In this document: in pieces, positions 14,392-54,617 of the stretch
Layout of the letters: the number at the start of each line of letters is the position of its first letter
Numbering within the stretch: the first letter of the stretch is position 1
Source: Antedon bifida
Lineage: Eukaryota > Echinodermata > Crinoidea > Comatulida > Antedonidae
Direction: 5' to 3'
NCBI GenBank assembly: GCA_963402885.1
Contig: OY727095.1
Span: forward strand, 12,901,001-12,965,000
Length of the DNA stretch: 64,000 nt
Translations under genes and position numbers: made by a program
Notes under the pieces: model-generated
What the model saw: only the letters and a program-made list of their open reading frames with translations
Told to the model about the DNA's origin: nothing
Databases searched by the model: none

Positions 14392-15330
14392 TACTAAATA
14401 CATGCACAATATCCAATCAACTGCTGCTATACCGTAATTTTAAATTATTATTATATTTGTTTTTGTTTATTTTTCGGGTTTTTTATTCACTATTATTATG
14501 TATTAAGAATGTATACAGTATGTTCTGAACAATTTGAACCTGAACTCATATTCTAAAAGTCTTTATAAATATTACAGTTACTTGATTCCCAGGAAAGCTC
14601 TTAATTCCATGGGTAGATTAGACCATTATACGAAATAAAAATAATTATATTCTGAACAAATTGAGCCATAAATGGTGTATCTCAGTCAGTCATTATCGAA
14701 ATATAGCATATCAAGGTCAATGGTCAAAAATGTTGTTTCTGGTCATTTTTTTGTCAAACTGTTTCATTAGAGTAAATATAAATAAGTATATTCTCAGTAT
14801 TTAGAGCCCAATTTTAAATCTCTACCACACATAGTTGCCGAGATATGGAAATTCTACCTAGATAAAGGTTAAAGGTCAATAACCTTTACTTCCAACCATT
14901 TTTTGACAAAATGTCTCATTACAATAAATGTAAATATGTACATTCTGAACAATTTGAGCCACAATTTGTTTCCCTACGGTCAGTTGTTACCAATATACAA
15001 CATATCAAGGTCAAAGGTCAAACATGCAAGAAATAGCATTTCCGGTCATTTTTGGCTAAAATGTTCTATTAGGGCAAATATAAATATGTATGTTCTGAGT
15101 ATTTTGGTACCAAAATCATATCAATAGACCAAGTAGTTTAGGAGGTATGGACATTTTAACTTTTTATCTATTTTGGCGGCCATCTTGAAAAAAACCACTT
15201 TCCGGTGGTCGAAATTCTTGAGACTTTTTTTCTGTTATTTAGTACACCCAATACTACCAAAATCCGCTGAAAAACCTTTTGTTGCAATTTTTTTGAGGTG
15301 AAACCTTATTTCTACTCTACTATTAAAAAA

Positions 15331-17356: not shown

Positions 17357-20300
17357 CTAGCGTTGCTTGTAACTTGATCTGTTATTATCCTGATATTTTT
17401 TTGGTTTAGAAACCGCAGCTTCTTTCTGATGAGGCACTGGAAGAGTTTTCCTGGAATGTCTAGAAGGACGCGTACGTTCACTGATTTTGTTTCGGCTACG
17501 TTTACTCTGTAAAAATAAATGAGTTGTATTAACAGAGGCTATTTATACAAAATATTAAAAAGCTTAACATTATAAAATCAAGACATGGAATATACTGAGA
17601 TTTAACGAAAATGACACTGCTGTGGGTATTACTGTAGTGGCTGGATCTCAACTCAATAGAAATATAATTAGCAAAGAGCTTAATCCAAGTTATGACATGA
17701 AACAGAAACTGGAGCAGATGTTTGCTTAACACTAATATAATAAGAAGTTATGAAAAATGTACAATATCAAATATACACACATACAGCTAAATGATGATGA
17801 TGAATACAAATATATGTGCAATAATGGTAATTACCTTTGAATGATGCTTTGTAGACATTGAAATCTCCTCAATAAAGTTTGACGGAACCAGACCACGTTT
17901 TCCTCTTACCTTAAAAAAAAAAACACCAAACAAGTTAGTAAAGAATTTCAATGAATTCATTTTGTTCGCTTTAAAAGAAAGAATATCAGTAAATTGGATG
18001 GATTTATTATTTATATTAACACAAAACATTTGTGTGATTTTTTGACTTGTAAAATTCTTGATATTACCTTTCCTTGAAAAAACCCATCTTGTCGCTTCTG
18101 GCCATATATGGTTAAAATATCGCCCTCTTCAAACGCTAACTCATAAGCAGGATAATCATTAGGAGAGTGTTTCTCAGGTATGTATTCATACACAGCAATA
18201 AACTGAAATAAATACAAATAGGAGTGAAAATCAAATAAAACATTAAATAGTTTACACATCTATAAAGTTGCAACACAACAGTTTATTTACTTTGTGGTAG
18301 ACAAAAGGTGTAACAGACATACAGGAAATTGTTGCTGTACTATTTAGCAGTTAAATGTTTCTTTGAATTTACAATCAATCGACTCAGATTACAAAGATTG
18401 TGATCTTTATATTTAATTGATATTGTGTTATTCGATTCCTGTTGTTCGTTTTTTTTCTTGGAAACTCACCAATCTCTGTTCCTGATCATCACTGAAGACA
18501 GAAGAATCAGTTGTGACGTCTTGAAACGATTCCGTCGCTGCCGATTGTGATTGGGGCGCTGTGTAGGGGACTGCCAAGATGTGGTTATATTTGGTGTGTA
18601 CGATTCTTGAGTGAAGACCGACCTCTGACATTGTCTGAATACCAAAGGTCACAGAAGCCGTGAGGTCAACACCATCAACCAGAGCCTAAGTAATTTAAAA
18701 CATATACATTAGCTTGGTAGATAAATAAACAATTTCGGAATGGAACTAAAACGCATATATTAATGTTCTATGCCTGTGATTTTATATATATATATAAATC
18801 CAAAGGCAAATTACTGAAAAAATGACAATGCTGTGGGTATCAGTGTCTGGATCTCAATGGAGATACAAAAAATATGCGAAAAGCTAAATCAAAACGATAA
18901 AGTAAAACAGCCAGAAAAGTTAGCAATATATATATATATATATAAATTTGAGGCAGGAACTAGCGAGTTACAATAATTAGAAATTACTGCAGTAGTCATA
19001 GTTACCAATCTATTCCTAATACAATTTAATATAGGAAACTGAAACACGCTGAAATATTTATCTGGAGAACATAAGTGCTGCAATCTATCTACCAATCCAT
19101 TCCTAACAAATGAATGTAAAATAAAGAACTTTAATAAGTTAATTTTAAATAAATATCTTACCTTCTTTAAAGTAGCATTAGCAACAAATTGACGCTGTTG
19201 CCCGTTAACAAACAACTTGTATCCATTCACTTGTGAACCATTACTGCAGTAATTACTATCCATTACTGGTGGCACCCATGTTAGAAGAACTCCATGTTTA
19301 CCAAGTTGCTTAGCAACAGTAAAGTGCGTAGGAGCATCAGGCGGTTCTATGAAATCATAACAATACAATAAAATAATATTAATAATAATAAATTATATTG
19401 ATAATAAATAAATAATAATAATACAAAATTAAACATTAATAGTGCTGCTTGTTGACTGCAGTCTCATTAATAAAGTGTCATCATATTTTTAATATCTATC
19501 ACAGAATACTATCTATCTACTTCTCGTACATCAAATAAACAAATAGTATTTACCTCCATGTTTTGTCTCAGGCCTAATATGTCCATTACTTGCTCTTTTG
19601 ATGCCAGGAAAGTCTGGCGCATCAACACCATTCACTGCAGGGGTTTTGGTAACATTTGTGTGGTTAAGTTGCAAGTGCCTTGGCTGAGTGTGGGGGAATG
19701 GTTTTATATGTGGTTCTGACAACACTCTTTGGGGTAAACCGTTTGACAGGTCACTCATGTTTAACTGACCAGTGCTTAGAAGTCCAACACTGTGTGGTGG
19801 TACGATACCATTGTGTGTTATAAGAGGTGTGCTGCTTTCACCTGGTAGTCTATGTAAATGAGACGGTGAATTATGATGAATGGATTGATATAACGTATTG
19901 TTCAGAGATGGCTCTACGATTAATAAACCATTACTATGCCCATTCATTTGTGTACTTGTTGTAGGTCTAGAGAGGTGGTTAGTACTAATTGCTGACATCA
20001 CTCCATTCTGTTGGAGCTTTCTGTGGTCAGGGATGTTAGTGGTCACACCAGATGGGAAGACTGGATCAATAGAGCTTTGATAAGGAACTTTATATTGATT
20101 CACATGAGCGTCTTGAAGTTCTTGATGCATCTGTACAATGCGTTCTGGACTGGAATCTAAGTAAACCGACGGCTGCAAAGGAAACAGAACAAATGTAGTT
20201 CCACATTCAATAAGCAAAAAAATAAGGTAAATTAGATACATTTACAAATAAAACACCTCTCACCTTGGATCGTCTATGCTTTGTTCTACTTAAAATATCA

Positions 20301-20890
20301 GCTCCCGAAGGTGATGACGGACTTAACCAATCAAGACTCCTTTCTAATGATGGCGCCCTTTTTGTATCTCGCGAATGACTATTAGATCTTCCCCGAATGT
20401 TTTCACTTAGTGTCTGCAGAGAGTCAAACAAGTCTTCCATGCTATCACTTCTTGCTGTAAACTTTGTTTGAGGTTTAGATGTTTTTTGCAGCAAATCTGC
20501 TACAGAGATTCCTTGAGTTATATCCAGTTCATCTAAACCATTATGCAAACTCTGTGATTGCAGACCACTAAGAACGGGTGATCTTGATCTCAGCACTTTG
20601 GATGTTTTATCAAGACCGTCTGATGAAAAGCTTCTCTGCGAAAGTGGGCTAAAAGTTGCAGCAGAGTTACCCTTGGGTAGATAGTCCTTTTTGGGAGATT
20701 TCTTCAATTGTGATGGTAGTGGTAATGGCTGGTTATATTCCTCTGATGGTATCAGAGTCTGTACTTCTGTGATCTCTGACAACAGCTTTCCACTTACATT
20801 GGAATCAACATGTGCCTGAAGAACTCTGCTCATTTTCTTAATCAACAAGTCTCTTTCTTTGCATTTTTCACGAAGATAGGACACCTTAGC
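17357..20890 (-). CDS. exons 29-35: disordered linker, FN3, SH3 and basic tail (RIM-BP-like)
   Basis: Residues 3095-3762. Exon 29 starts with coil (AKVSYLREKCKERD) and becomes Ser-rich with basic RRSK ends. Exon 30 is disordered. Exons 31-32 encode an FN3 repeat beginning EPPDAPTHFTVAKQ, with LLTWVPPV and VNGYKLFVNGQQ, the pattern of RIM-BP FN3-III (W-x-P-P, N-G-x-x-V-x-G-Y-x-V/L). Exons 33-34 encode an SH3: AVYEY (ALYDY motif), SPN insert, ELAFEEGDILTIYG, RGLVPSNFIEEI, closest to RIM-BP SH3-III. It ends in a Lys/Arg-rich tail, as RIM-BPs do. Missing relative to RIM-BP: SH3-I, FN3-I, FN3-II, SH3-II. RIM-BP SH3 domains bind RxPxxP motifs in RIM and Cav channels. Confidence 0.75.
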
Positions 20891-23800
20891 CTAAAAAATG
20901 TATAAAAATTCTATGAATTACAAGGAGGGATTAGAAAGATTACACTGCACAAAGATTTAAGATAACATAAAAATGTGTAATTACCGTAAAAATAATGAAA
21001 TAAAAATTAAATAAAGTGGACAAATATAACATCGAAGGGTAAATGACATACCTTAAGGGGAAAAATATAACAACAAAGGGTAAAATGACATACCTTACGG
21101 GGAAAAATATAACAACAAAGGGTAAATGACATAAATTAAAGGACAAATATAACAACAAAGAGTATATGATAAATATACTTTAAGGGGACAAATATACCAA
21201 CAAAGGGTAAATGACATACCTTAAGGGGACAAATATGACTACAAAGGGTAAATGACATACATTAAAGGGACAAATATGACTACAAAGGGTAAATGACATA
21301 CTATAAGGGGACAAATATAGCAACAAAGGGTAAATGACATACCTTTAAAGGGACAAATATGACTACAAAGGGTAAATGACATACTATAAGGGGACAAATA
21401 TAGCAACAAAGGGTAAATGACATATATTGAGGGGACAAATATAACAAAAAGGATAAATGACATACCTTAAAGGGACAAATATAACAACACAGGGTAAATG
21501 ACATACATTAAAGGGACAAATATAACAACAAAAGGTAAATGACATACCTTGAGGGGACAAATAGATAATTCAGCTTCATGTTTCTGTTCTTCCATTCTAT
21601 CAAACTATAACATTCAAAAACATTTAAAAACATTAAACTTGAAATACAATTCATATATAATAAACGTTACCAAATCTCAGTACAATCTATACAGTTAAAG
21701 GAGACAATAATGATTACAACACCATACATATTAAATTCACAAAATATATAAAAATATAGGATTTCTTACTGTATGACAGGTAGGGTTTATGCAACTTTGT
21801 ACATTTCAATGAACAGTGACATGTGCAATCTCATATAATATAAACATATATATAAATAATACAATAATGGTTTGTCTTGTTTCATTATTTAAGCAAAAAA
21901 AAAAACTTAAATATGTATTGTCCCCCCAAAAGATTAAAAATAAAATTTAATAAAATCAGACTTTGAATATATCATTTTGTAGTTTTAGTAAAGTTCACTT
22001 TACCGTAGAAAACGGAAAAAATAAATGGTTAAATTCAACCAAAAAACCATTGGCTGACTGCCAATTTTACTATCTTTTGCTTTAAATTACAGTTTCTTAG
22101 CTAAATACATTTATTTTTCTCGATCCAATTTTTGATAAAAGTGGATAACTAATAGGTGACATTAAAATAGCATATTCAACAAAAAATGTTTTAGGAATTA
22201 TTTTTCCAGAGGGACAATACATCTTTAAATGTAGTATTGAAATATGATAAGCCTAAAAAATGTAGGATGACGATTCTACAACAGATTATGTTTTCTACAT
22301 TTAACAACATAGCTAGTTGAAATACAAATGGGTATTTATTCATTCCTGCTACAATTACATGCCATAATATTAAAATCAATTTATGTTGATTTTGTATGTA
22401 TAAAAGCAAGCAAAACACTTAAATCAATAACATGTAGCCAATGTTGCTAGCGTTAAGTATCGTGCCTAAGGATCAAATGCGGTATTCATTTTATTTGATA
22501 TTTATCATTTGATTTTATTTGAACATTATAATGTTGTATTCAGTGTTACCTTGTCTTTGATATCCTGATAATGTTCTTCTATGTTGTCTTTATATTTACT
22601 AAGTTTTTCTAAGTGATTCACTTTCTCTTGTAGTGAAGCGTTCTCATCTTCTAAATACATCTTCTGACTTGTCTGAAAACATAAAATGTTTTTTTTTATC
22701 AAGGAAACCAGTACCATTTGATTAATAATTATAATTAAACAATATTAAGTAATCTTTTAGCACTCAGTATCATACAAATAATGAATGGGAAGAGAACATT
22801 CATTATCAACAATCAACACACCTTCTTTTATATTCAATTAATCAGCTGTTAAATTAAATGTTGAGTTTGTACATATGTCTCTCCACAAATGTACTTCCAT
22901 CGCGAAACCAGTCATAACATTCAATGTTCGCGGTGGAAGTACAAAATAGGTGGTGCTGTTGTATTTCAAAAGCAATAGTATAAAAAAATATTTTCCAAAC
23001 GCAAAAAGTTTTTTTTTTCGTACACGAAAAAAAGTACCATTGAACAACCATTTAATAGTTGTACTATTGCACCATGTGACCCACAATCGTCCAATCAAAT
23101 GACAGGAATTTATTTAGGGGTTATATAATTGTGTATATCACATGCTATGCATTATTTTCAATCAACCATTCAAATGGCAAGGATATCATACCTTATCTTT
23201 AAGCATGTTCTCAGCCAACTGTAGTTTTCTATCAACTGCATCTTTCTCTCTCAGTGCTAGATCCATGTTACGTTGCTCTTCTTTAAGTGCCTCAATAGTC
23301 TCCACCATTTCCGGTAATTTGGCAACTTCATTTTCCATTTGAATTTTCTGCAAACAAATTTAAGCACACATGTAAATTCTATATTTCTATTATACATGAA
23401 TTACAACAGCACCATCATACAGTATCTACCATTTTTATTACCCATCATTCTTTATCTTGTGTGTATCTTACCTCTCTTTGTAAATTATCAATCATTTGTT
23501 GGAAGTGTGTAGCATCATTGCCTCGTGTAGCACTCACTTCCTCCTCCAACCTGTCAAGTTTATCCTTCAAATTCTGCAATTCCTCTGTTTTCTTTTTCAG
23601 CTCTTCTTCCTAATAAATTAACAAATTATTAAATTAAATATACTATTTTGGGTTCATGTGAAGACAATAGCATCAACAATCCACTGGGTGGATCCACCGG
23701 TATCATGCCTTTTATATAGCAATTTGTTTCAAGTAGCTTTTTTATCTATTTTCTATTAATAGTGAAGTTGGTTTTAAAATATTCTTGGATAATTCTGCAT

Positions 23801-26800
23801 ATAACTACGGTAACAACAATATCATCTTGTTTACTTGTTTATATATTATTCATTACTATCATTACATGCTGTACATTATTTTATTAATATTAATGACAAC
23901 TACAGTAGCTGATTCAAAGAAATTTTAAAATACACTAAAAAGATATATATATCATCCTTCTCATTGCAGTTTATTTTCAGCATACCTGCTACTACTATTG
24001 ATTCATTTATTATTTTTAATTAATAATTGATATTAACAACATGTGCAGTTTGTAGATAATCTTCTTAGTAATAAAGCTTGTTAAATTATTGAATACAGTT
24101 AAATGGAATTAGCATGCGAGTTGTAATGCAGTTTTAATCAGTCAATTTATTATAGTACACTACACTAAGCAGGTATAACTAATTTATATGCACCGTTATT
24201 GGAACAATTATTATTTTGAGTAATTTTAAGAAAAAAGATTTATATCATATGGCCTAATGTATAATGTATACATTCAACTGGTATGGAGAATTAATCTCTA
24301 AACTGCTCTGTGATATATCTGGAAAATAATTTATTTTTTAAATGGTTAGGAGGAAATATGTGAGGTTGACTCAAAAAACCCACCCACCTAGATTAAAAAC
24401 ATAGAAAATGTTGATTTGATATTCTAAGGACGCTGTGGCTTCTACATAATATCAAGAGTCCTTTTTTACACACAACATTGAGAAATCTATCTTTAATCAG
24501 GTTTTATACCAAACAATTAGGTTATAGAAAGAAGATGCATTTCTCTATCACACTGTAATTTGGTCAATCATACCTTTTCTTTCATTTGTTTATTGGTCCT
24601 TTGTAAGTTGTCTTTGAAATTGCTGTCATCGAATTCAAAATTCTGAAGTTGATTTTCTTTTACCCGAAGATGATTCTTTGTTAGATCCAACTAAACATAA
24701 CAAAATTAATATTAATTTTGCGAGTTGCTTCATCGTGTTTCATGCTACTAATTAATGAATCACAGCACAGTTACTGTATGTTAGTAGTAATTCAATATTT
24801 AATAATAACAGATATTTATTATACCTCATCACGCAACTTCTTCAGTATTCCGTCCTCATTACTGTAATTACCATTTAAACGTTTAAGTTCCTCAATCTGA
24901 AATATTAAAGTAAACAAAACGATTAAAATTCAAAAAAAAATTTGAAAAATACAATGTTCGCCTTACCAGTGGTTGGCTGAACAGTTTTTCTAATTTTCTC
25001 CACCATTACTAGTAAAATGTCTATTATGCATTATCTATTTTAAAGTTACTCACTTTTGACTGTAGCGTTGCAATTTCTCTCTCTTTTTGCCAATTTTCTG
25101 ACTTCAATCTCGCAATTTCAAAGTTTTTATCTTCTAGCTCCAATTCTTTAGCTTGAATCTATTAAAATATTTAAAGATTATTTCAACGCAAAATGTTAAC
25201 TTAAAAAAATTCAAGCATTAACTACTAGTATATATAACACATTTTTTATAGATTCTGTATTATACCTTTTGTCGACTAATGCTAATATGTTCCATATCTC
25301 GCAATTTTCTTTTTAGTTCTTCCTCTCTCTTGCGTATTTCTTGAATCAAGTTGTCCTTTTCCTGCAGATAATTAGAAAATTATTTAATCTCATTTCAATT
25401 GATTTTCCCCTTTTATAATCAAAATTTGGATACAATCTGGCACTACTAGGTACTCAATTTAGAGCTTTTATAATTTTACTTCTATTGTACTTGGATTTTT
25501 AAGATGTGGTAACTCTTTTGAATAGTAACATTTTCCTTTGTGAAATTACATTAAGTTAACAAGAGGCAATATCTTACATCAATCTTTGATTGCAGAATAG
25601 TGTTTTGGGTCTTCATTCTCTGCGCTTCATTAATATCCTTCTCCTTCTCTTGACTCTGCCATTCCATCATCTTCTTCAACCAAAGAGGAGTTGGTGGCTT
25701 TGGTGCTAGCTCTGGTGTCTCTCGTTTACCTCTTGGCAAACCTTGAGGCAGTGAAAAAGCTCTGCCAACTGGATTATGATCACTGTCCTGTTCAACAGTT
25801 GTAGTGGAGAGGGTTTCCGTCCCACTGTCAAAAGACAATGGTCGCATGAACAATGATCTTGGTCTTTGAATGCCGTCACTTTCATCACGTCCATTTGTTG
25901 GTCTGGTAGACCCATTTGATGGTGGCGCTTCATTTCCAATTAACAGATTCCTACTAAGTGGCGGAGGTGACTGGGGAAGAGGAGGTGGGTTATCTGAGAA
26001 TTCAGAACTTGTGGAATTAACTCGTTTATGACTCGGCGGAGCGCTGCCAGGTAGTGGTGGAGGTTCTGAAGGCATTGGTGGCGCTTCCAGTTTGTCATCA
26101 ATTCTAATCTCACTTATCGGATCTTCCATTATCATTGACCCACCATCGACACTTTGTTCATTAATGGATTCTTCCACTGTAATCAAAGGAAGCGCATTCA
26201 CAAGATCTTCTATGAGTTTCCGTCGGGTATTTGGACTAGCTTGTTGTAACGGAGTGTTCTCTTCAAATGAAGAATATGAATCCTGATTTACTATCTCGCG
26301 TTGAATCATATTCGTAGGATGCGTTTCTCTGGCAACTGTTGCTAACCACTGTTCTGCGGCTCGTTTCTTTTGCTCCATTTTCTTGCGTGCACACAAAGCA
26401 CAGTGGATTTCCACTGGCTGGTCATTTTCATCAAAGATGATGTGTGAGTGTCCAGGTGTGTTATGCAATCTGGTAGCATTCAACGGTTCTTCCATATCAT
26501 CAAACATGTCTTCCAATGCTTGTAGTCGATATAAAACATAAAAATGTCCTATTGAGGCATCGTTAAGTTGAATTGGATAATTATCTTGGGAAACAGACTC
26601 CAGTGCATCCTTTAGTGACTTGTGACCTAAAACAATATTTTAAACAATGTAAACAAATCGTTTTTTCACAATTAATGATTTGATGACCATTACTACAGTA
26701 CAGTACTAATCACTACTATATTCATTACAATTACTTGTTGGATGATGGTCTTTAGAATGTTTTATTTAGAATGTGACCTGTTTTGATTGATATGAATGTA

Positions 26801-29800
26801 AATTGGTAAAAACTATTTAAATGATCTTTGGTCTTTACCAAAATGTTGGGTGGTATTAAGAGGGCTTGCAATTACTGTACCTGTAGTTGGTGTGTTCTGA
26901 AGAACAAAGTCATTGATGAACTTGCATGAATAACGATGTGATAACTGGTGAAGTAGATCTGGTAATTTTTTAACACTCTGCAAGAATATAAATTAAAAAC
27001 TCTCTGAAAACAAAACACTCTTGGAATGGTTTTATGAAAATCCTGTTATCAGATTCAAATTATTGTCTTCCAAAATACGGTCATACAAACTAATATTGAT
27101 TTCATATAGGAAATATTAACAGAGAGTGAAATATACATAATACACACAGTCTATTCCGATTCTTACATATTTTCATTATTCAATAAGTATTCCTCTATTG
27201 ATTATTATTGATTTACCACACGTCTTTCTGTAGTAAAGTATATGACAAGCCTTGACATTTATATTGAATACAAAAACAAGGACAATAATATCATTGTAAT
27301 ATGCAAGAAGATGTATAATATGAAAAGAATAAATCAATCAAATTACTTTTATAAAGAATTTTTCAAGAAGCGTGTTATTAATTTTTATAGAAATAAAAAA
27401 TAATTTCATATTAAATTTATTACCAAGAAATTAATAGATATAGTATGTACAATAATAGGACTTTCTATAGAATACCTATCATGTATATTGTTGTCTTGGT
27501 AACACCAGCTTTAACAAAACAATGATTTGATAAAGAAAACAAATTACCTGTTACAATTAATCACCCTATAATCACAATGGATGATTCCAACAGATTTCTG
27601 TGGTCTTATATTCCTAATCAACAAGTCACAATTGCTTCTTATCAATACTCACATATATAATTCCATATTTCTAACATATTTTCCCATAGAATCAAATCCA
27701 TTAACTCATAAAAATGTTATTCCTGGCTGGAAATTCCTTGTCGGATATTGGAATGAGCTTTCTTTTCATATAGTGTGGAACATGTGTCATAAAGTGATCA
27801 ATATTTAGTAATAAAATGTATTTGCATGACAATAGATGATAGCTAACAGATGGATATTAGTAATTGAGAATCTACCATTGTATGAAGAGGTGGATTCCAT
27901 AAATAGTGTGTCATTAAACAGTCATTGTAGGAGGACAATACCTGAACTGCCTTGTATATACAATAGTTGTACAAATTAGCATAATGTAGTATTAATAAAG
28001 ATAAAGACATTGGTGAGGTCTAAACTAACAAGATAAACTAGAAATAAAATTTATATTACATATTCATAGTAAAGCAAGTATTACTGTAGAATAATGACAA
28101 TATTGTCGATGCTGGAATTGTCATAGTCCAGTTCTGAATTGACTTTTTCCTTTAATAATACAGTACTAGATTTGATGTATATATATATATAACTGAGTAT
28201 AGTCACAGGGGGTGGGATTATACAGTACTATTATGGAAATAGTCATGATGAAATTGGTGGTGTCCTGTTCTTTAATATACCTTATTAGTTATCCGCTTGG
28301 TATACCAAGCGGATAACTCCTTGTAATTGTATGAGATCAATATTTTTTGGTTATCCGCAACTTAGAAGTTGCGGATAACCCTTGTGATTGTAAAAATCAT
28401 TTTCATCTTTATTCTTCTTTCTTTCCCGGATTTTTGTGAGCAGCATATCCCCTATTTCTTGTAAATATATCTTTTGTATAACTTTGTCATTATATGGACA
28501 TTTACCTGAAGTTGTGCACCTCCATATTTTGAATGACGTCAGAGTTGCGTAACGTGACTTACGCGCGATTTTATGAATTTTAATGATTGATCATAGGATA
28601 AAAAATAAAAGTCATTTTGTATTGACACTTGGTGAAAATTTAAGTCATATCAAGCGCAAACTTTCTATGGATTAAAAATTACGTGTTTTACAAGAAATTA
28701 CGCGCGCACGCGCATTTAAAGTTTCAAAATGCGCAAAATTAATTTCTAATCAACTTTCTGCGCTGATCATGACATTTTGAGCATGTCAAAAATTCCCGCG
28801 CGTGCGAAAAATTGTACGCGTAAGGTGCGCACGGAGCATGAAAAACATGTTTTTTTCTCTTGAATTGTGATTTTCCAGCCTTTCCTAGTCATTTAAAAAG
28901 AGATTGACATCATTTCAAATTAAAATGACGTCATACGAACACGTTGATTTATAACATTTGCGCGCGTTTTAGTTGAAAAAGTTACAAAATATTGTCAAAT
29001 ATATGCCTATTTTAAATCTATTATAGCTCTTCAGGATCGAAGGTGACCCCCAATTTTTTTAACTTATTATGCAAGAAGATAAATTGTAGATATGAATTCA
29101 TGCAGAATTTTTACCTCTCGGATGTTATGACGTCATCGTATGGCCACACGAATGTAAAATATAGGATTTTTTACTGTTTCGTTATTGCTCATCACATTAA
29201 ATAGAGCGCATCTCGCTTATACGTATTCCATTTCACCCGATATTTTAATACTGTCTAGGTCAATTAACTATCTTTCGCATGAGTTAAAAATATTTTAATT
29301 TTTATGACGTCATCATGTCTAAAAATGTAAATAACGTGGGTCACCTATTTTCATCTTTACAGTAAATTTCAATCTGTTATAGCTCGTCAGAATAAAAAGT
29401 GATAATCATAATTAAAAGGTTTTCTGGAAGCTATTGGATTGTAGATACGAATTCATGTGAACATTTTTCAAATCAGATGTTGTGACGTCATCATATAGCC
29501 AGTTGAATAAAAAAAGTTGTATTTTCATCTCTTCCGTAAAAGTTCATTGCGTTTAAACGAGAGCGCATCTCACTTTCACGTGCCCAAAATTCTTCAAATT
29601 TGTATTAATGTAATTATTTAGATAATTATCTTCTAAAATAGTTATCTTTATAAGTCAATTTGATGACGTCATCGTGTTAATAATTGGCTTTAAAAGATGG
29701 GTCTCGTAATTTCGTCTATGCTACCACTGTATATAACATATACAGTGTATTCTGTAAATACTGTAATATGCTGTATGCTACAAAATAGGTACAATTCAGC

Positions 29801-41800: not shown

Positions 41801-44800
41801 AGTCCACGGGTTGCATCATAACACATTATAGTGGTTGCAATCCTGTACCATTCAACCTTTAATAGTTAGCACACAACAGTGTACATTTATTTATTTATTC
41901 CTTTCAGTGATATATAAAAAAGGGAGCAATGGGGAGAGAAAAGGAGCTGCCAAAGACAACTACTGTATCGTCAATGAGCGATAGTTGTCCAACTAGATTA
42001 ATAATAATTCATTAAAAATGTTTATGACGGCATGTAAAAATTTAGATTACTTCTTTCCTTATTCTCTCATTATCTCCTCTCCTTCACTCCTTCTCTCATT
42101 ATCTCCTCTACTTTATTACTTCTTTTCTTTTCTAATTAACCTCATTTCTACTTACCAAAATTCTTGGTGTACTTGCTCTTGGCGAGTCTGTTGAACATAT
42201 TGAACAATCTTGCTCTGAAGTCTCCAGTAATTGGAATTCTAAAAGTTCCTTTTCATCTTTCACTTCTTTTAAGGAATACTCAAGCTCATTAAGCTGTAGA
42301 AAACAATTAGGAAAATGTATTCATTTATTTATGTATATATAAACAATAATTGTTTGTTTGTAAATACAAACTTTATAACTTGTCTTGAGCAATTTATTGT
42401 TAGTAGTTGTAGTGCAATGAAATGATTTATGTATTGTTTATGTATTTATTTGTATAGACAAACATATCAATCAATACCCTAGCAATGTAATGCTTCTTAA
42501 TTAGGAAGCTTTAAATTTGCACCGACTTGGAAAAATGAGATATCGGGAGGTTTTATGACACTATAGAGGGCACTATAATAATACATCAAACCACAGTGGG
42601 TGCTATAAAAACTCTAAAGATATTGGCATCTATAATTGTAAACATGGGTATGTCAGGTATACCAACTAATTATTTCAAAATGCATGAATTGATTATAAAC
42701 ATCTAACGGACCGATATTGCATTTTTATCGGGAGATACTGTGTCATTGGGTGTCTCCTGGACCTAGAATCCGCCAAAACTGTGTCTAGGAATCAAGTGAG
42801 GATGTACATCCCAATGTCCCAGCATGCATACAATGAATTAACATGACATGTTAGTTCTTATGTCATTGCTCGTTGTCTGGACCTAGAATCTGCCAAAACT
42901 GTGTCAAGGAATCAAGTGAGGGTCTACGTACCAATGTCCCAGCATGCATACAATGAATTAACATGACATAATTAGTAGTTCCCATGTCTTTGGTTGTCGC
43001 AAATTGAATGCTCCGTATCAGCATTAGTAACAGTATATGAATACTTTATATATTATTTATCATTTTTGACAAATTTATAATGGGAGTTGGGATACAGTAT
43101 GTCAACAGCTAATGCAATGATTGATATTCTGAATATTGCTACATGAAACACCTGCTTAACAATAAAATGCATTGTTTATACAGTATCTAATCTGTATACC
43201 ACCTATCTAAACTGCAAATAAAAAAGTATATAATATAAACAAAAAGGGAATATAAACTTTACATTAACTATTAACATTCATACATAACAACATTAATGAG
43301 CATTATTAGACATGAAATTAAATTTGAAATGGAGTTTAAAAAATAAATTTGCAAAAACTACCCAAGTACATAATCAAAAAAGGAATGTTTTTCACTATGC
43401 AGTATGTTAATGGTAAACAGATGGAAGAGGGTGGGGTGGGAGAATGGGAGAGGGTGGGGTGGGGGAATTAAAGAGGGTGGAGAGGGGGATGCAAGAGGGC
43501 GGGGTATGATTGACTGCTCAACTAAAAAGGATGTTTCAGTAAAAATTAAGAACAACATACCTTTGGCTATAAATAAATGGCAGAAATAAATATAATATTT
43601 ATTAAAAGAAATGTTAACTACTTTACTATTGCTTACGAAATGACAATGATTGATGATTTTAAATACATGATACATGCAAATGTTTAGTTACAATTTCTTT
43701 TCTACAAGATTTGGTAAATTAAGACCGATTTTCGTGTACAGGCTTTTAGAAAAACTAAAAATTCCATGCTAAACATGCTCGTCGAAGATTTTATTAAAAA
43801 AAGAATGTTTATTCTTCAAAATGCTGCATTTGTATCGACAATAAAAGTATGTATTTGCAGTTTTTTGTGTTTACTGGATGAACATGCCTTTTACCTATTG
43901 AAAGATGTACGGAAGGCATCTAGTGCGGCAGACTGTATATAAATAAATCTACAACATTAATAACATACAAAATACAAAGGTTTACATACGATACATGAAT
44001 AATGTCAATGCATACTTGATTCACCTGATACCAAGTCAGTATTCACTATCAAACCAATCTCTGCTGTCTAAATGATCCTTAGTGGATAATTTAGAGGAAG
44101 TCATGCTTTCCAGTAAAATTCAGGTGAGGTTGGGCAGAATTTACAGATCTATTTGTACAACTTCTAACAATAGACCACCAACGAATATAAACTCACTTTT
44201 TCATTTGATTTTGTAATCTGTTTCTGCATCTTTTGTTTTTCTTTCAGCCAATCCACACTCTTTCCACTATCTATTAGGAGTTTCTGTAAGCTTTCTATTG
44301 TAGCCTGGCTCTCAATGAGATCAGATTCCAGTTCTCTTCTCATCTTCAAGAACATAAGAGAAGGAGCAAAATGTTTATAGACATTTAGATATAAATTTAT
44401 CATTCAAAGCAGTGATTATAAGAACCAGTGGTTGTCTTCAACAATCACAGGCTAAGGAAAACATCTTTAAAGTTCACAAATTCTATGGGCAGCATCATAC
44501 AGCCAATAAACAGTGGCTAACGGCTATGAGCGCTCACTGGCTAAACCCAGGGGCCTTGGAGCTTATGGGGGCCCCTGAGCAGTGCCCACAAGAAAAAACA
44601 GGCATTAAAATATGTCGAAAAAGGCTAAACGCCTGAGGCCTCCAGTATTGGGCCACTGCCAATAAACTGTCAGTTAACTGAGACAGTAGCTTGCTTGACT
44701 ATAGGGTGACTGAGAGGAACTGTCACTTACCTTAGCCTCCCTTTGTGTGTCCAGTGTGCCACCTACAACAGTCTGTAACTGGGTGTACGCTTTCTGTAGT

Positions 44801-47800
44801 TGTAGGTATTCTTTACTAAGTTGTTGGTAATTTGCTTCTAATTCTGCTTTATCAAACTAAATAGAAAGATGGCACATACTAATTATAATAATACTATTAA
44901 TTATAGAAAGATATCAATCTAATCCACTGGACTTACTGTAAGTAACTGTAGTACTGTAGTAAAATTAATACTACCTGGATGAATGAGAATATTCATATCC
45001 GTATTAATATTATTAATTTATATATTATCCCTTCAGGCAATGAAGATGATCAATGGGAGTTGTTTTGTTTTTCATGAGAAAAAATTTGAAAAGATTTAAA
45101 CCCATGACCCTGGACTCGGTGGGCATTTTACCTCATTCCAATCATCCTCATCAATTGTACCAGAATCAGACACTAAACTAACTTCATCACTAATTGACTT
45201 AACAGCTTTTCTTTCAATACTCAATAAATCCGTATTGTTCTGAAAAAAAAAAAATATTGAAATATTTTAATTTCACAGTCTAAAAAATACTAAGATTTAA
45301 ATTCTGAATGACTACAATGTTACTAATAACTCACGTTATTCTTCAATCTGTCAATAACTCGTGCTTGCTGTTCTAGCTTTGCTCTCAACAGTTCTACTTC
45401 ACTCACTTCTTCCTTCATACTGGCATGTTCTTCATTCAGAGCCTTCTTTAAATTTTTGTTTTCACGCTCCAACCTACTACGCATTTGGTCCTTTAGTGTA
45501 CGCTGTATAGAAATATATTTATAATCATTAATACAATTAACAACAAAAATGATTTCCTCAAATAAATAAATCTATATTTGATTAAATCTTTACCAATCGT
45601 TTATTTTCCATTTCCAAAAGCCTGCTATTTTCCTCCAGTCTTTTATTAGATTGTTCCACATCTTTTAACCGTTTGCTTAACAGTTTATTCTTCTCTGGAT
45701 TTTGTTCAAGTTGGCTTTCCATACTCTTTCCCTCCATTAACTGTTTATTTCTATCTTCTAGCCTCCGTACTGTATTGTTTAACTCTGTGAGTCTCAGCTG
45801 CAAGCGTCTTTCTTTATCTGAGTCTTCATTAGTCTATGAAAATTAACACATATATGTGTACTTATATAAATTATATGTTATGTTTTCAGCAATTTAGGTG
45901 CAATGTGAATGCTCTAATAATGAGAAGTATCACATTCACATCATATTCTAGGCTGCAAATAGCAGGTGTAGATTTAAAGCTCAGGTATAGGCATGAATTT
46001 TAAATATAATATCTGGTTAATTGTACATAAATCAAATATTTGTAACAGAAATCTACACGAAAAACATGAATTTCCCCTAATATGGTCAAATACAAAATTT
46101 GGCAATATTCTGCCATAAAAACCAGGAAGACTTTTTTTCAGTAGTTAGGTAGTTAACTTAATGTAATAACATGTCTGGTGACTCCCTAGAAGGTGAAAAA
46201 AGACGGTGGATATACGGTGGATAATTTTTGCTATAGCATGAAAATAAAAATCTGAAGTTGAATAAAAATACCAGAAATGTAAAATTCAAGTTATATTACC
46301 TATATTTAGTCATCTGATAACATTTTTTACCACACCGTTTATTTTTCATAGCTTTTTTACAAAATTTGTGTACAAAAGAATAGAGATTTTACTTTGAATT
46401 TGAAATATCCCCCCACTGATAAGAAAGTGCTTATTTTCAACAAGCTCGTGTAACACAAATAAAATCCCAAAAATTATGAAACATAGGGGAAACTATAGAT
46501 CTATAATTATTGGAATGTATGATCAATAGAAATTTTTTGCCTGCACCTGGCCTTTAAGAATAATACAAAGGATACAACTATAGACTGGGAATTCAGAACA
46601 AAAAGTTATAGAATTCACAAAAAAATAAATGGGGTTATAAATTTGTAGCTACCTATGATAGACTGTTAATTTGAATACTGTATACAAACTCATACAGCAA
46701 TGCTGTGACTATAACCCCGGGGGGATCACTTGTATACAAACCTAAATTTGTACTGGTTCCCGGCAAAAGTGGAACCGTTCATGACAGGTTTTGGGATAAC
46801 ATAGGTGGCTAGTTTTCATTGATTAGGATCCCTTTAGCGATGGCTTAGCATCCAGTATAGCTAAAATCCCTGCTAAAATTGTGCGATAAATTGTGCCAAT
46901 TTGACGGACTACTAAATTTCACCCCGTCATTTCCCACGCTTGTGCTACCAAATCCTCGGAAATATACCCCGTAAATGCCGCACCTCCCTGTATCGAAATA
47001 CTTAAGACTAGAGTGATACATTCCTATTTAATTCTATAGAGTAGGTATCCTTGCCAAGTTACAGAGTTACAGTAGAATTCCAATGGCATTACAAAACAAT
47101 ATTAGGCCTGCAGGGCAAACATCGAGTTTTAAATAAATATCTGTAAGTAAACAATTACATTCTTTTCCAGATAATCAATCTACAAATTGTGTAAAGGGCA
47201 TTTCTAATGATATTGACACTGTTATAGCTTTGTGGTTAACAATTTCAATGGTCCGAGAAATGATATCCTCTTCGTAAAACCAAGGATTTGTCATACCTCA
47301 TTGGCATATTCTTGTACAAGTATTGCTAAACATTTGCTTAATTAAGCTTAACCTTAATTTGCCTAATTTCTATTTAAAGTAAAATATTTGAATTTCAGTT
47401 AGCCTTCTTTGTGCAGAGATTCAAGCCTTGTGATTGGTGATATTATTCTCCTTAGTTAATATAAATAATAATAATCTTTGATTAATTAAAAGTTTTAACT
47501 TACTAGATTATCTAGATCAAGACTACGGCTTTTCTTCATTGATGCTCTGGGTGACCGCTTTTCCCACGATTCTGCCATCTTTGTTAGATTGAGCAAGCTT
47601 CCGAGAGAATCCTTTTCTAGTTGGAGTCGTTGGGAATAACTGGATTGATAGCCTAATTCTTTCTCCAAGTCACCGATCACTCGATCTTTGGATTTTAACT
47701 CATCGATCTGAAAAAATAAGTGAGTGAAATAAACAAGACATATACTCAGTGTATCAGGTCACGAAAATAAATCAAATGCTAGTGAATCTTGAAACCGATG

Positions 47801-50800
47801 ATATGGTACAAACTGTAGAGTAATTTCTACCACTGCTAGTGGTAAAGTTACAACACAGAATAAATTTTTCATTAAAATTGCAACTTAAAACCAACTTTAA
47901 TTAAACATCCCTTATAGTATTGTAATTATTTGTAACTACTGTGGAGTAGCTTTGCATCAGTGTGTTGAGTAATTGGTCAGATGTTTTGCCCTACTCTGTT
48001 GTAATTTGTACTTTATACTAAGTACATTGAGAATACTTGCGGAAAAAAAAAAAAATATGCAAGTAATTCTTGTGTGGGCTTGAACCCACGACCTCCAGAT
48101 CACTATTCTGGTGTTCATACCTCCAGACCACCGAGCTTGCGCTGATGGCTAGGGGTTAGATTCGAGCCCAAGTAAGCAGCGGGTACTGCACCAACAGGAT
48201 TGTAATTGTTTATAGTGCCGTTCTAGATGGTGTAATGAAAAAATTGGACTAGCATGTAATAGGCATGGGTTCGAGCCTATCCTGTACAATACTAACTGTA
48301 TCCTTAGGAAAGATGGTTTACTCTCATTGCGTCGTCCTTCGGATGGGACGTAAAGCCATTGGTCTTGTGTACATAGTGCAAGTTAAAGAACTTGGTACAC
48401 TATTTGCAATTAACAGGTAGGGGATCATCTCCTGGTATGCTGATCTTGTAGGCACTGCATTGCTGGCTGCTGTGGGTCTGTGGAGGGCCTAATCCGAATT
48501 CCCTCAGTTTACCATAAATACTATTTTTACCCTTTACCTGTAGGATTTAGAATTTTGTACCCATTTACTGTAGGCCTACATACCTAATATACAGTATTAG
48601 TCATTGAGCAAGATGCATTTATAGATACCGATATGTAAAGGTATTATAGTGAACTTTACAGTCATTCAGGTCAGGTGTCCTCACTGTAGCTTTGAGTGTT
48701 TGTGTAAATAAATTAAAATGATAACAAAAGGTTTATGCTAATATGCCGCTATCATGGCGAGAAAGACACTTGATAAACTGGTCACTACATGATAAATTTT
48801 TATGAATAATTGATTAAATTTACTGCAATATTACTATCATCGCCTATAGTCACATGCTATAGTACGTCCGGACAGAAAACAAATTTCACTGCAACACAAT
48901 TGAACTAATTGTACATGTCAATTCTAAGAAATCAGCCTATGATAGATGTACAAGTACAGTACCACAAACCAAAAACAGTAACAAACATCACAACTGTAAA
49001 ATTGATCATTTTATTCTACATAATATTCTAGATCTACATTATCCTTCATAACTACACAATTTTACAATTAACAAACGTTGTTACATTCCAACGCCTTTGT
49101 GACAGGTTTTCCTGTTGCAGATGGCCAACGTAGTGATCGAGAAAATAATATGTTGCTGAGCAAAAAATCCTCACATAATTAAAATTATCTAGCATGGTAT
49201 AAAAAACCCAATAAAAGAAATTACCGTACGCAAGTCATCAATTTCCAGCAGAATAGATTAAGTTCTCTGCATGTTTCTTGAAAGAATGCGAGTATTATTT
49301 ACAGTATAGCCACCCTAAATTATCTCCTACTGTACATCTTGCTTAAGTCACTTCTAAGTAGACATTGATAGGTATGAGTAGTAAGAATGAACTGAGACCT
49401 ATTGTATGCTACTTATGCAAGTGTGTTATCCAATGAACTTGCTCTGTGTGCAGTGAAGATAGGGTCAACACTACAGTACTAAAACCCAGGTTAATCCCTC
49501 TTGTCAATCCTTTGCCTGGAAACAATGCAAAATCAATACAACAACTTTTCTCGTTTTTAAAGGCGAATAAATTGAACAGATGCATTGTTGAGGGAGGCTT
49601 ATTGTTTAATCATAATAAGGTGTCATTTTAACTAATTGGTTTAAAAATGTTAAGCTATTGTTTTACTTCTTACTAATTGATGGCATTAAATTACCCTAAC
49701 CATTAATCAGTATTGGATATAATTAGGTCTAGCTAAAGTGAATAATTTATTAATATTTGTGTACTTTAATTCGCAAATAAAAATTAAAAATATTGATGTT
49801 GACCATATCACAATTGTTCAGTAATAAGCTATCACATAGTTTTACTTTGACATGCCTGAGTGAGCTGCTAAGTTAATCCTTTTAGCAGAAAAGGTGGGTA
49901 GTTCTTAAACTGTTTACGCATTGCTATGACAACCATAAACTAAGATTCCAATGGGAGGCCACTTGTATACTGAGGAAGGTAAAACTGAAATGTAAACACA
50001 TAAAATGTTGGCCATAAGGTCAAAGGGTTAACTGGCATTTGCAACAAAAAATGATTTATGACTTTGGTAATTGTACAGCAGGATTCTAGTGTAATGAAAT
50101 TGTTAAAAACAAGATGATGTGGTCTAAAAAATATATATGTTATTCTCTTTTGAATATGAACTGAGTTTATACTATTATTATATTAAACTTTAGTGGAACC
50201 TTTGATGAACAAATCAAGTATTAAAATGTTCATCTAACTGCAAGTCAGTGACAGGTCCTGTTTCTGTGCTGCAAAAAAATAACTGGTTAATAATAACCGT
50301 GTGAATAAATTAACCCCAATTTCTTGGGAGCAGAAACAGGACACATTTTCAATAACCGGTTAAATGGCAGCCTGAAAATAACTGTTGAAAACACGCAATC
50401 GATTCGGTGTTTGAACGCCATTTTACCAGTTATTGCTGTGCAACTTTTAGCTACAATGCAAAATAACGGTTATTTGATTGACAGCCAGTGCCCATTGCAT
50501 TTTGAGTACTGCTAACAAATTCCATCGACGACACCAACTAATTTATGAGCAAAAATTTAGCGGAAATGCAGTCAATATAATAATTGTATTTTAAATCTAT
50601 TTTGAAATAAATGGTTTATTCGGCTCTATATGCAGCAGAAACAGACCCTTAATTCCCACATAGAGCGCTGGACTTGATTATTGGAATTTCTTTGCAACTG
50701 GTTGAATTGGAAATCATTTCAACCCATAATGCTTAGAACTTAATACGGCATTAGATCAATACATGATCAATTGTTATGAATTAAAAATCAATGTTCACAA

Positions 50801-52124
50801 TGATTTCAATCCACTCTGGTGATTTTCATACCATAAAATCAATACATTCTGAATACCTACCTCCAAAAAGCAAAGCTTTGATGACAGTGATTTCAAACAC
50901 ATGTTATGTGAATTTTAAATGATTCTTTTTGAACAGCAATGTTATGTTAAAAGCTACGTTTTTATGAAACATACCATATTTTTTAGCCTTTAGACAAAAA
51001 CTAAAACTTAATGGTGGGCATACAAAATGATACCATACTCTCCCAATGGTTAATTATTTTTATGCTTTTAAAAAAGAGGACTTGGGCAAGCAACCTATAT
51101 TTTAAGTTGTTATATTTGTTTTTAAGAGGGTCTTTATAGCCTCTACTCTAGAATTTGTAAGTAAATCTAGAATTTTTAAAAGGCTCTAAATGTACTATCA
51201 AAAAGACTTTTCTCAAGGTTCAAATTGTCCCAAATTCATTTTTGAATTTTTTTTTCTGGTGGAACTAGCCTTAAAGCCCTGGGCTTAAGTTTCTCCAGCA
51301 TAAGTGCATTCTATTTTTAAAAAAAAACTCTCATATGTTATTACATAATGATGTATCTTATGTTTACCATTAAAAACACATTTCGAATACCAGACTTTGT
51401 TGGTCAGCCCAAAAGTTTCTGGTATTGGGAGAGTTGACTATATTGTTAATTTTTAGGAAAATCAAACTAAATGATAACAAGATGATGTACATACCAATCT
51501 TCTAATGTCTGTCTTGGCTTCTTTTCTGATCTGATCAAGTTCTCGCAAATGTTCTTCATAAGAGCGTCTAATATCTGTTGCTTTCTGTCTGTCTGAAATT
51601 ACCAACAGATTCAACTCTTCATCCAAATGCTTTTTACTTTTCTTCAGATCATCAATCTCTTGAAGCAGCTTTGCTTTCTCAGCTTCAAATGATCTTGTTA
51701 TATTCAACTTGAAGTCTGCTAAAAATTCATGTTTCTTCCTAGAAAACTCCTCCTCTTTGTCCTTTTGGGCTTTTAATTGATATTTTTTTAATGCTTCATT
51801 GTTTACGCGAGACATCCGATTAATTTCCGTGTTGTGCTGCCTGTTTAACTGTTCCCTTTGGTTTGCTAACTCTTTCTCCTTGTCATTGAGCAGTTTGGCT
51901 TTTAAATCATTAATAGTTACTTTGTATGCTTGTTCCTCATGTTCTTTTACTTGTTTAATTTCTAAAGCCTTTTCTCGTCGTAACTGCTTAACTGCATTCT
52001 GTTCATGTTCAAGCTGTTGATTTAGTTGTCCAATATGAGTTCGCATTTCTTCTAAATTTCTTTTTAATGATGAATTTTGGGCCTCAATCGAAGACACCTT
52101 TTCATTTATTTTCCCAGCCATCAT
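17357..52124 (-). CDS. giant JAKMIP-like / RIM-BP-like coiled-coil, FN3 and SH3 protein, 35 coding exons
   Basis: Exons 1-35 on the minus strand (high-low): 52128-51495, 47707-47504, 45833-45594, 45502-45335, 45239-45132, 44856-44731, 44343-44197, 42293-42156, 41754-41689, 41559-41506, 41284-41213, 41071-40925, 40398-40189, 38906-38799, 38568-38443, 36786-32293, 32059-31907, 31668-31588, 26977-26881, 26626-25578, 25361-25266, 25158-25054, 24896-24825, 24690-24574, 23609-23472, 23347-23192, 22672-22550, 21604-21548, 20890-20264, 20172-19554, 19346-19162, 18685-18470, 18202-18068, 17909-17835, 17506-17357. All junctions are AG/GT and in frame, giving about 3,762 residues. The start is ATGATG at 52124, 4 bp inside an acceptor with a strong pyrimidine tract, so a 5' UTR exon lies upstream. 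Head: JAKMIP homology (residues 1-587). Middle: coiled coil. Tail: one FN3 (about 3510-3600) and one SH3 (3644-3713). A split into two genes is possible because nearly all introns are phase 0, but no internal start region or stop was seen. Confidence 0.7.
18928..18944. repeat. TA microsatellite
   Basis: Uninterrupted alternating TA in the intron between exons 31 and 32. A second TA run lies near 18783-18796. Confidence 0.8.
21014..21562. repeat. ~42-bp minisatellite derived from an exon 28 / intron junction
   Basis: Thirteen copies including the functional one. On the minus strand each unit reads ATTTGTCCCCTTAAG then GTATGTCATTTACC then CTTTGTTGTTAT, with variants. The first copy (21542-21562) is the real 3' end of exon 28 plus its donor. 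The array fills most of the 657-bp intron (21547-20891). At least five further units keep a perfect AAG|GTATG donor (near 21460, 21338, 21215, 21089 and 21048). Units are mostly 42-43 bp. Confidence 0.9.
21548..25361 (-). CDS. exons 21-28: second coiled-coil block
   Basis: Residues 2807-3094, eight phase-0 exons of 32, 35, 24, 39, 46, 52, 41 and 19 codons. Heptad-rich with few breaks (exon 25 EEELKKKTEELQNLKDKLD; exon 26 EVAKLPEMVETIEALKEEQ). RIM-binding proteins also carry coiled coil before their FN3/SH3 part, so this block may be the ancestral RIM-BP-type coil, which is inference. Exon 28 ends at the donor from which the 21.0-21.56 kb minisatellite derives. Confidence 0.65.
21907..22228. 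mobile_element. MITE family B copy (intron 27)
   Basis: Ends TTAAATATGTATTGTCCCCC and GGGACAATACATCTTTAA are inverted repeats. Internal blocks (CAGACTTTGAAT, GGTTAAATTCAACCAAAAA, CTCGATCCAATTTTTG) match the copies at 57799-58135 and 61469-61739. Confidence 0.75.
25578..32059 (-). CDS. exons 17-20: unassigned globular segment, CxxC and proline-rich region
   Basis: Residues 2347-2806. Exons 17-18 are short coil. Exon 19 and the start of exon 20 (about 2425-2500) read like a small helical domain (LPDLLHQLSHRYSCKFIND, then IQLNDASIGHFYVLYRLQ). At 2532-2535 is a single CALC pair within EIHCALCARKKMEQKKRA; one pair alone does not make a zinc finger. About 2638-2690 are proline-rich (PMPSEPPPLPGSAPPSHKR; PPPLPQSPPPLSR), a second candidate SH3 ligand in the same chain. 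I do not recognise this region in JAKMIP or RIM-BP. The intron between exons 18 and 19 carries the Helitron-like pair. Confidence 0.6.
28288..28380. repeat. two hairpins with GTTATCCGC...GCGGATAAC arms
   Basis: 28288-28317 is a perfect 30-bp palindrome (GTTATCCGCTTGGTA and complement). 28349-28380 is a near-perfect 32-bp palindrome (GGTTATCCGCAACTT, loop, complement). Each is followed by CTTGTRATTGTA. The same GCGGATAAC word precedes both Helitron-like 3' hairpins downstream (29888 and 31418), so the pair may mark 5' ends of the same element type. Confidence 0.7.
28406..29930 (+). mobile_element. Helitron-like element, copy 1
   Basis: Starts TCTTTATTCTTCTTTC after an A and ends with a stem-loop AACTCGTCA-AAG-TGACGAGTT (29901-29921) followed, after five bases, by CTAG and a T. 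A 3' stem-loop a few bases before CTRR is the Helitron signature. GCGGATAAC just before it and GTTATCCGC hairpins upstream resemble the subterminal repeats of Helentron-type elements. No Rep/helicase frame, so non-autonomous. Roughly 1,525 bp. Confidence 0.65.
29934..31457 (+). mobile_element. Helitron-like element, copy 2, directly behind copy 1
   Basis: Homologous to copy 1 along its whole length, beginning TCTGTATTATTCTTCTTTCC about 4 bp after the CTAG of copy 1 and ending with the same stem-loop (about 31428-31447) and CTAG (31454-31457) before T. Roughly 1,524 bp; many substitutions and small indels separate the copies, so the array is not recent. It lies in the 4.6-kb intron between exons 18 and 19 of the giant gene, antisense to it. 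Confidence 0.65.
32293..36786 (-). CDS. exon 16: single 1,498-codon coiled-coil exon
   Basis: Residues 849-2346 without a stop or intron, between a TTTCAG acceptor and a GTATGT donor. Composition is dominated by Glu, Lys, Leu, Ser and Asn with continuous heptads. A short phrase of the type E-x-E-x-x-L-(K/R)-x-(K/L)-(I/L) recurs every few heptads (LHESEQSLLEKI, LEDSEKKLKDLL, VESVESQLRTQV). It is broken once by a proline-rich island at about residues 1400-1420 (PPPPPLPKTPPPLP), a class of sequence bound by SH3 domains. Length is 214 heptads exactly. Function is probably as a long rod or tether; no motor or enzyme signature was seen. Opposite-strand frames here are shadows. Confidence 0.8.
36787..38442. 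other. intron 15, no feature recognised
   Basis: AT-rich intronic sequence between exons 15 and 16. No repeat family or extra exon was identified. Confidence 0.5.
38443..41754 (-). CDS. exons 9-15: short coiled-coil linker exons
   Basis: Residues 588-848, in seven exons of 22, 18, 24, 49, 70, 36 and 42 codons, all phase 0. Exon 9 (TEEAGLHYACTLDQFN) is not coiled coil and is the first sequence with no JAKMIP counterpart. The rest is heptad-rich (for example exon 12 MEEEMASLRNNITELENE, exon 13 KKLKKQLSDANEG). Donors and acceptors are good throughout. Confidence 0.65.
39868..40131. mobile_element. MITE family B copy, inverted (intron 13)
   Basis: Ends TTAAAGATGTAATTGTCCCCC and GTTACATCTTTAA are inverted repeats. 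Inner blocks (GCCAGCCAATTGA, GGTTGAATTTAACCA, CAAAGTCTGATTTAATTAA) are in reverse order relative to the 57799 copy. Confidence 0.75.
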
Positions 52125-53237: not shown

Positions 53238-54234
53238 CAATAAGATGCCGTATTACAGAATTTGCCTATGATACAGGATAAATATTCATATGGATATACA
53301 GCACTGAGAATCGGGTGCAATTTAGTTAACTGTGTACGTTCTCATATCCCTCAACAGCAGACACATTACACATCGGTCGTTCTAATTATGTAAACTTCAA
53401 TTTTCTAAAGTAATGCTACTAAAATATTATGTATACATAATAAAAAAACTAATACATCACAATCTGTTGTCATTGATTAGGTCCACTGACTAACCTCACA
53501 AACGAACACAGGACTTGTTTCAGATTCTCAGCACACCAATCAGCAATGAAAACAAACATGTAGTAGGCCTAATGGCATCTGGACTAAAGCCTATCACACT
53601 TAAAAAAAACAATTTTACAATAGAGGGCAGAATAACAAAAAGTGTTTAGGTTAAGTAGTCGCTTGCTACCCAAACCCGATGCATGCACAATCAGAACATT
53701 AGTTAATGCTTGTTTTTAGAATAAACTTTTACTTTTACTACCATAGCCAATAGATAGATACTCTCGCAGTAGTTTGTTGTCATTTGCCTTATCAAATAAG
53801 AATAATCACAACCAATAAACTCTGACTCATATAGATCCTGAAGTGGTTGATACAAACATTTTCATCCATGTAACATATTACCCTTCCGATTGCAATCAGC
53901 ACCGAAAAAAATCAAAATCAGTTTTATTTCTGTAAGAAAAGAAGAATAAAATTTAGTTTACAATTAAGCTGATGTTGAAAAGGTAACAGGTTTCAAATAG
54001 CGTTAGAAAATAAATATGAAAAAAAAACCCCATTTTCACCTTTTAGATTTACCAGCATATGTATATTCTATATCTATATTCTTTCAATCATTATCCATGT
54101 ACCAAAGAATACTGAATTTAAGGTCCATGACTCCAAAACAACACTGAACCAAAAGAAAAAAGAATTGATTATTATTTGAATAAAGTATAATATAAAATAA
54201 TGGTCAGATGTTACAAACAAATATGTATGGGTAT

Positions 54235-54617
54235 AACCTTTGACTTGCAGCCTACTGGGCTGAATTGCACACAGGTGTGGATGACATACCACAACTTTCT
54301 ACTCCCCTAAGGGTCAATTTGTGTCGAGTGCTGGCACCAAACGGCGCCTGTTTGTCTGTCCACAATGACAGGGGCTGAATGGACCAGTACACCGGGGTTA
54401 CATGCCCCTACTCTTCCGAAAGATGTACAGGGTTCTTTAAAGTGCACATGAGCCAGATTTGTACATTGGACCTCTAGTAACTCCTTATCCGAAGGCTTTT
54501 TCTACCACCAGAACAATGGTCGAGGAGTGACATGAACCTGTCAGTGTAGATTGTATAAGCTACGGTTTGCGGCGCATTCCCTGCCATAACCGCTCGGCCA
54601 CTTGACTCAACTGTCGA
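54235..54617 (-). mobile_element. SINE family S, copy 1
   Basis: Shares GTACACCGGGGTTACATGCC, AAAGATGTACAGGGTTCTTT, GTGCACATGAGCCAGAT and CATAACCGCTCGGCCACTTG with the copies at 60464 and 62318. The tRNA-like head is at the 54570-54615 end, so it reads on the minus strand. It lies between the giant gene and CCDC125. Confidence 0.7.

Follow-up and report, generated by a model that had tools for sequence, protein, structure and literature searches.

The described proteins that come closest to the gene analysed here are the JAKMIPs (JAKMIP1/2/3), the RIM-binding proteins (RIM-BPs: RIMBP2, TSPOAP1 and Drosophila RBP) and the DUF4527 proteins. DUF4527 is presumably a domain of human C4orf50, a gene that would lie at 4p16.1 behind JAKMIP1 and share its strand; the word DUF4527 was not found in the literature searched for this identity. 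The printed positions of the two human genes probably come, on our assumption, from different genome builds, and for this reason they prove closeness only. A C4orf50 methylation site is given at chr4 5,972,071 (PMC11245434) and JAKMIP1 is placed at chr4 6,106,385-6,253,183 (PMC3352055), and in those parts of the literature that our searches covered, the two genes occurred together in a differential expression context. The N-terminal coiled-coil region of JAKMIP1 is reported to bind microtubules and kinesin I (PMC12732012), and RIM, bassoon and calcium channels have been described as partners of RIM-BP2 (PMC8445062). A design that joins a JAKMIP to a RIM-BP-type SH3 did not turn up in literature searches (JAKMIP with RIM-BP, invertebrate coiled-coil, SH3/fibronectin); at least three papers contain both JAKMIP and RIM-BP terms, among them PMC3765260, in which RIM-binding stands within a reference title. 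The JAKMIP3 gene of abalone is reported to extend over 110 kb (PMC11758661).

A 35-exon coding chain

The window, that is, the whole 64-kb stretch of DNA analysed, corresponds to C8:12901001-12965000 and contains no N bases; it belongs to an Antedon bifida genome that was searched as 315.6 Mb in 27 contigs. On its minus strand, 35 exons can be joined without a break in frame, giving 3,762 codons followed by a single terminal stop (Table 1), with GT..AG borders at all 34 introns and no internal stops. Nearly every intron lies in phase 0 (32/34), the two exceptions, between exons 19/20 and 30/31, being in phase 1. The initial annotation had proposed 35 frame-consistent exons, and the same anatomy was recovered here.

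The chain was rebuilt using a dynamic program that scores splice sites together with codon composition. It was trained on seven open exons of the giant gene itself and was supplied with the start, while the stop was left free; it ended at 17357. Of the 35 exons, the program recovered 27 exactly and two with shifted edges (exons 20 and 32), missed six (9, 10, 11, 19, 31 and 33) and added a spurious exon of 6 bp, the missed and shifted exons being placed by hand from motif and frame. Since the start was fixed, though the stop was free, this agreement is only partly independent: it supports the chain and is not proof of a single transcript.

Two repeats lie inside the gene. A 41-bp minisatellite of 13.3 copies (window 21014-21563) runs over the end of exon 28, taking in its final 16 bases, and contains repeated copies of the donor of this exon, 21000-21620 holding GTATGT ten times and AAGGTATGT six times with the true donor counted, and it may be a source of decoy splice donors. 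Intron 18 (28344-31266) contains dispersed repeat copies with up to 93% identity to C10 near 30.03 Mb.

Table 1. Features of the 35-exon chain, in positions of the window
Feature	Position	Strand	Basis
Entire coding span, 35 exons, 3,762 residues	17357..52124	-	Coding/splice-site dynamic program, motif and frame
Exons 1-8, residues 1-587, JAKMIP head	42156..52124	-	Colinear with a provisional JAKMIP1 reference, 4e-73
JAKMIP_CC3 profile match, residues 400-569, exons 4-8	42210..45379	-	80.6 bits, 1.7e-22
Exons 9-12, residues 588-700, probable further JAKMIP similarity after DCSIC	40925..41754	-	Window comparisons, mixed
Exon 16 (4,494 bp), residues 849-2346, coiled coil in a single exon	32293..36786	-	Model, heptad test
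Proline-rich coil break with KTPPPLP (residues 1411-1417)	35011..35190	-	Motif scan
Exons 19-20, residues 2425-2806, block outside the coil, with CxxC and a proline-rich stretch after it	25578..26977	-	Model, Pfam scan
DUF4527 profile match, residues 3056-3135, exons 27-29	20768..22609	-	41.2 bits, 1.7e-10
Exon 31, first FN3 part, preceded by phase-1 intron	19162..19346	-	Homology and frame
Exon 32, second FN3 part and linker	18470..18685	-	Model, Ig_RIMBP2
Exon 33, first SH3 part	18068..18202	-	Homology and frame
Exon 34, second SH3 part with VPSNF	17835..17909	-	Dynamic program, solved-structure matches
Exon 35, basic tail and stop	17357..17506	-	Dynamic program

JAKMIP head, coiled coil and DUF4527 segment

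Pfam scans that jointly covered the giant protein from end to end returned five models above their cut-offs: JAKMIP_CC3, DUF4527, Ig_RIMBP2, SH3_2 and SH3_9. The first of these (cut-off 30.2 bits) bears out the JAKMIP homology that had been assigned to exons 1-8. The whole head is colinear with JAKMIP1, model residues 2-575 aligning to a provisional reference sequence with 205 of 626 columns identical and 69 gaps. JAKMIP homology had been thought to finish with the DCSIC block, in exon 8; instead, the similarity appears to go further, and it likely extends into exons 9-12, though not firmly. Compared with two provisional C-terminal blocks of the longer JAKMIPs, residues 576-665 score 49 and 46 and rank above all 230 other 90-residue windows, the best of which reach 45 and 41. 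Residues 588-700 score 74 and 66, against 54 and 57 for the best of 200 of their own shuffles, but are exceeded by the best of 40 coil windows from the same protein (78 and 71).

The giant differs from JAKMIP1/2/3 in the roughly 3,100 residues that it adds, with DUF4527, FN3 and SH3 at the end, and in having no convincing hydrophobic C-terminal end in a pattern scan. This short end is known only from long JAKMIP isoforms and is hence not defining; a crude pattern for it, run over 30000-52200, gave one unconvincing intronic match with no coil before it.

About 2,650 residues of the protein, including most of exon 16, pass a crude heptad test and would form coiled coil. Proline-rich breaks interrupt the coil at about residues 1381-1440 and 2621-2700, the former holding the only [RK]xxPxxP match of the entire protein. 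The block encoded by exons 19-20 gave no match above cut-off in the Pfam scan.

Near the end of the coil lies a DUF4527 segment that the initial annotation did not have. Three overlapping pieces score 33.1, 35.7 and 41.2 bits against a cut-off of 29, while none of six heptad-preserving shuffles of the segment matches the profile; about 77 of its 277 positions are matched and the remainder of the profile has no match in the giant. The coil end of the animal's own RIM-BP (see below) does not match DUF4527. A search of the genome's contigs with this profile returned nothing and is uninformative, because the giant gene itself was missed. If DUF4527 stands for C4orf50, the segment suggests that C4orf50 is what corresponds in vertebrates to the giant's back half.

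The RIM-BP-like end and the rest of the genome

The last five exons encode one FN3 and one SH3. Ig_RIMBP2 scores 57.1 bits on residues 3511-3595 (1.9e-15; cut-off 27) and SH3_2 40.9 bits on residues 3646-3704 (1.7e-10; cut-off 21.8). Solved sequences matching the tail within 0.01 number 84, and among the best 60 of these the first five places are taken by RIM-BP SH3 domains (2csi of RIMBP2, the best at 2.9e-16, then 4z88, 4z8a, 2csq and 1wie), with Grb2 in sixth place; the FN3 part is matched by the RIM-BP FN3 structures 2csp (1.9e-4) and 6q9m (4.6e-4). The earlier description of this end as a RIM-BP-like FN3 and SH3 thus holds under profile search, and the SPN insert, the VPSNF motif and the basic tail that it named are all present in the rebuilt tail, the SH3 carrying a DGF as well. 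On the other hand, a RIM-BP is an array of three SH3 and several FN3 domains, and since the giant has only one of each we do not class it as a RIM-BP; it differs further in its JAKMIP head and in its location, apart from the RIM-BP of the same genome.

The latter gene was found on C7. Ig_RIMBP2 gave nine matches at E <=10 over the contigs, two of them above cut-off, in the giant gene and in C7 (79.4 bits at C7:31561210, against 47.4 bits for the first FN3 exon of the giant). In the C7 gene three SH3s are also matched, in order and by half-exons (E 3.9e-5 to 0.13; several individually weak, yet clear once translated), and the gene carries the RIM-BP coil start. With this FN3, the three ordered SH3s and the coil start, it is a RIM-BP proper. 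One of its exons provides the nearest non-self match in the genome to the SH3 of the giant (3.9e-5), a C12 SH3 coming next (1.4e-4). Among the C7 SH3s, the third is the nearest (31/60 identical, against 30/63 for the first and 29/61 for the second). For the FN3, pairwise scores do not separate the candidates (73 with FN3-1, 75 with FN3-3 of C7), and we favour the last FN3 of RIM-BP as the closest on the profile and an SNG insert.

Intron positions give mild support to capture of a RIM-BP 3' end. A phase-1 intron enters the FN3 in both genes, and two of the three gap settings used place it at one and the same codon of the alignment; judged by eye, the internal FN3 introns lie 2-3 codons apart and differ in phase, and the SH3 introns lie 2 codons apart in equal phase. 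The similarity between the coil ends is weak (26.6 bits with a provisional RIMBP2 reference; 25.0 bits with C7, composition correction off).

In a search that takes each exon separately and scores the best candidates alone, and that may therefore miss short or diverged exons elsewhere, the genome holds one recognisable JAKMIP, namely the giant gene; apart from it, the head recovered a single decayed fragment, on C10. JAKMIP_CC3 gave three matches over the contigs, of which one, in the giant gene, is above cut-off (32 bits); the second also lies in the giant gene and the third on C15 (E 0.5). The C10 fragment (C10:30026888-30027133, within L038) is a duplicate of exon 1 with four stops and 68% identity, and the DNA next to it is similar to parts of window 53537-54833, which marks it as a small decayed duplication of the 5' end of the gene. 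A decayed copy of the whole gene, which would combine this fragment with an SH3-like stretch at C10:30050199, 23 kb away on one strand, was considered and rejected: tblastn of the full model on 60 kb there gave only these two (E <=0.01), and the SH3 is of another type. No relative turned up in viral and prokaryote collections, as expected for an animal gene, one of the queries being flawed.

Rival readings, proposed history and putative function

We consider it probable that the locus is a single giant JAKMIP gene that carries a C4orf50-like segment and a RIM-BP-like tail, encodes a long coiled-coil dimer and has the history proposed below; the 35-exon chain would then be a single transcript. 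The main rival, which we regard as unlikely although it deserves serious weight, postulates two tandem genes on the same strand: exons 1-15 would make up a JAKMIP of some 850 residues, and exons 16-35 a separate giant gene for coiled coil, DUF4527, FN3 and SH3. Human JAKMIP1 and C4orf50 are indeed separate neighbours, as far as their printed positions and a presumed strand tell, and in-frame joining comes cheap here, because with nearly every intron in phase 0 two adjacent genes would likewise join in frame. However, the acceptor of exon 16 is a good one, and upstream of this exon the frame stays open for just 14 codons and lacks an ATG; nor did the scan for a JAKMIP-like hydrophobic end described above provide the first gene with a convincing terminus.

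Considerably less probable is a separate downstream gene for the FN3-SH3 end, misjoined to the coil at exon 30/31. The gene finder did miss exons 31 and 33 and shift exon 32, so that these rest on homology and frame, but it returned exons 34 and 35 in frame with exons 29-30, and the donor of exon 30 and the acceptor of exon 31, 207 bp apart, are both in phase 1. Finally, that the giant is the animal's RIM-BP with its front half replaced is scarcely credible, since the RIM-BP on C7, with its better Ig_RIMBP2 score, refutes it for this genome even though the FN3 and SH3 of the giant match RIM-BP best.

If the single giant gene is accepted, its history would be as follows. The JAKMIP1 and C4orf50 of vertebrates, now neighbours, may be the split halves of such a gene, and the giant may show the state of the human JAKMIP1 gene before it broke in two. 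With a RIM-BP present on C7 in the same genome, the tail of the giant appears to have been copied from the 3' end of a RIM-BP, from which the FN3-SH3 end would be derived. The earlier interpretation survives in its JAKMIP head, RIM-BP-like tail and continuity of frame. Its further idea, an ancestral form from which both JAKMIP and RIM-BP split, finds no support: RIM-BP sits separately on C7, and with the sole JAKMIP_CC3 match above cut-off lying in the giant gene, RIM-BP was not split off this locus. More tentatively, with odds somewhat short of even, the JAKMIP of the ancestral deuterostome, or of an older ancestor, would itself have been a giant with the C4orf50 segment and the RIM-BP-derived FN3-SH3; vertebrates would have split it, and JAKMIPs would descend from a microtubule-to-active-zone tether.

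Conserved linkage with the CRMP1/DPYSL family is not supported, the ten dihydropyrimidinase-type matches in the genome, none above the family cut-off, lying all on C12 and C15 and not on C8. A search for synteny with human 4p16, using an assumed gene order, gave just one weak, sub-cut-off EVC2_like match (C8 33.45 Mb, E 0.047).

Were the proposed split correct, C4orf50 would be the lost back half of JAKMIP1, which offers a testable origin for this little-studied human gene. It predicts that JAKMIP1 and C4orf50 share one pathway, may still interact physically and may yield read-through transcripts.

By analogy with JAKMIP1, a member of a family characterised by microtubule and Janus kinase binding, the head would bind microtubules and kinesin, and the protein would form a dimeric rod which, given an unbroken coil, could reach about 0.3-0.4 micrometre at most. 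At its far end the SH3 would hold proline-motif partners, as in RIM-BP. With the head on microtubules and the SH3 on such partners, the protein would tether vesicles, channels or the cortex to microtubules. If it is indeed one protein, a microtubule and kinesin binder is joined to a RIM-BP-type SH3 over a rod of hundreds of nanometres.

Three other features of the window lie outside the gene. A large inverted repeat spans 11661-15314. Its arms (11661-13096 and 13894-15314) pair in seven blocks, of which six show 93-98% complementarity and one shows 70%, and the innermost arms are separated by 797 bases. On the minus strand, 4699-5850 holds an open frame of 383 residues whose composition is protein-like and for which Pfam gave no match at 0.01. 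On the plus strand, 57065-57601 holds a cysteine- and serine-rich open frame of 178 residues, possibly an exon of a neighbouring gene.
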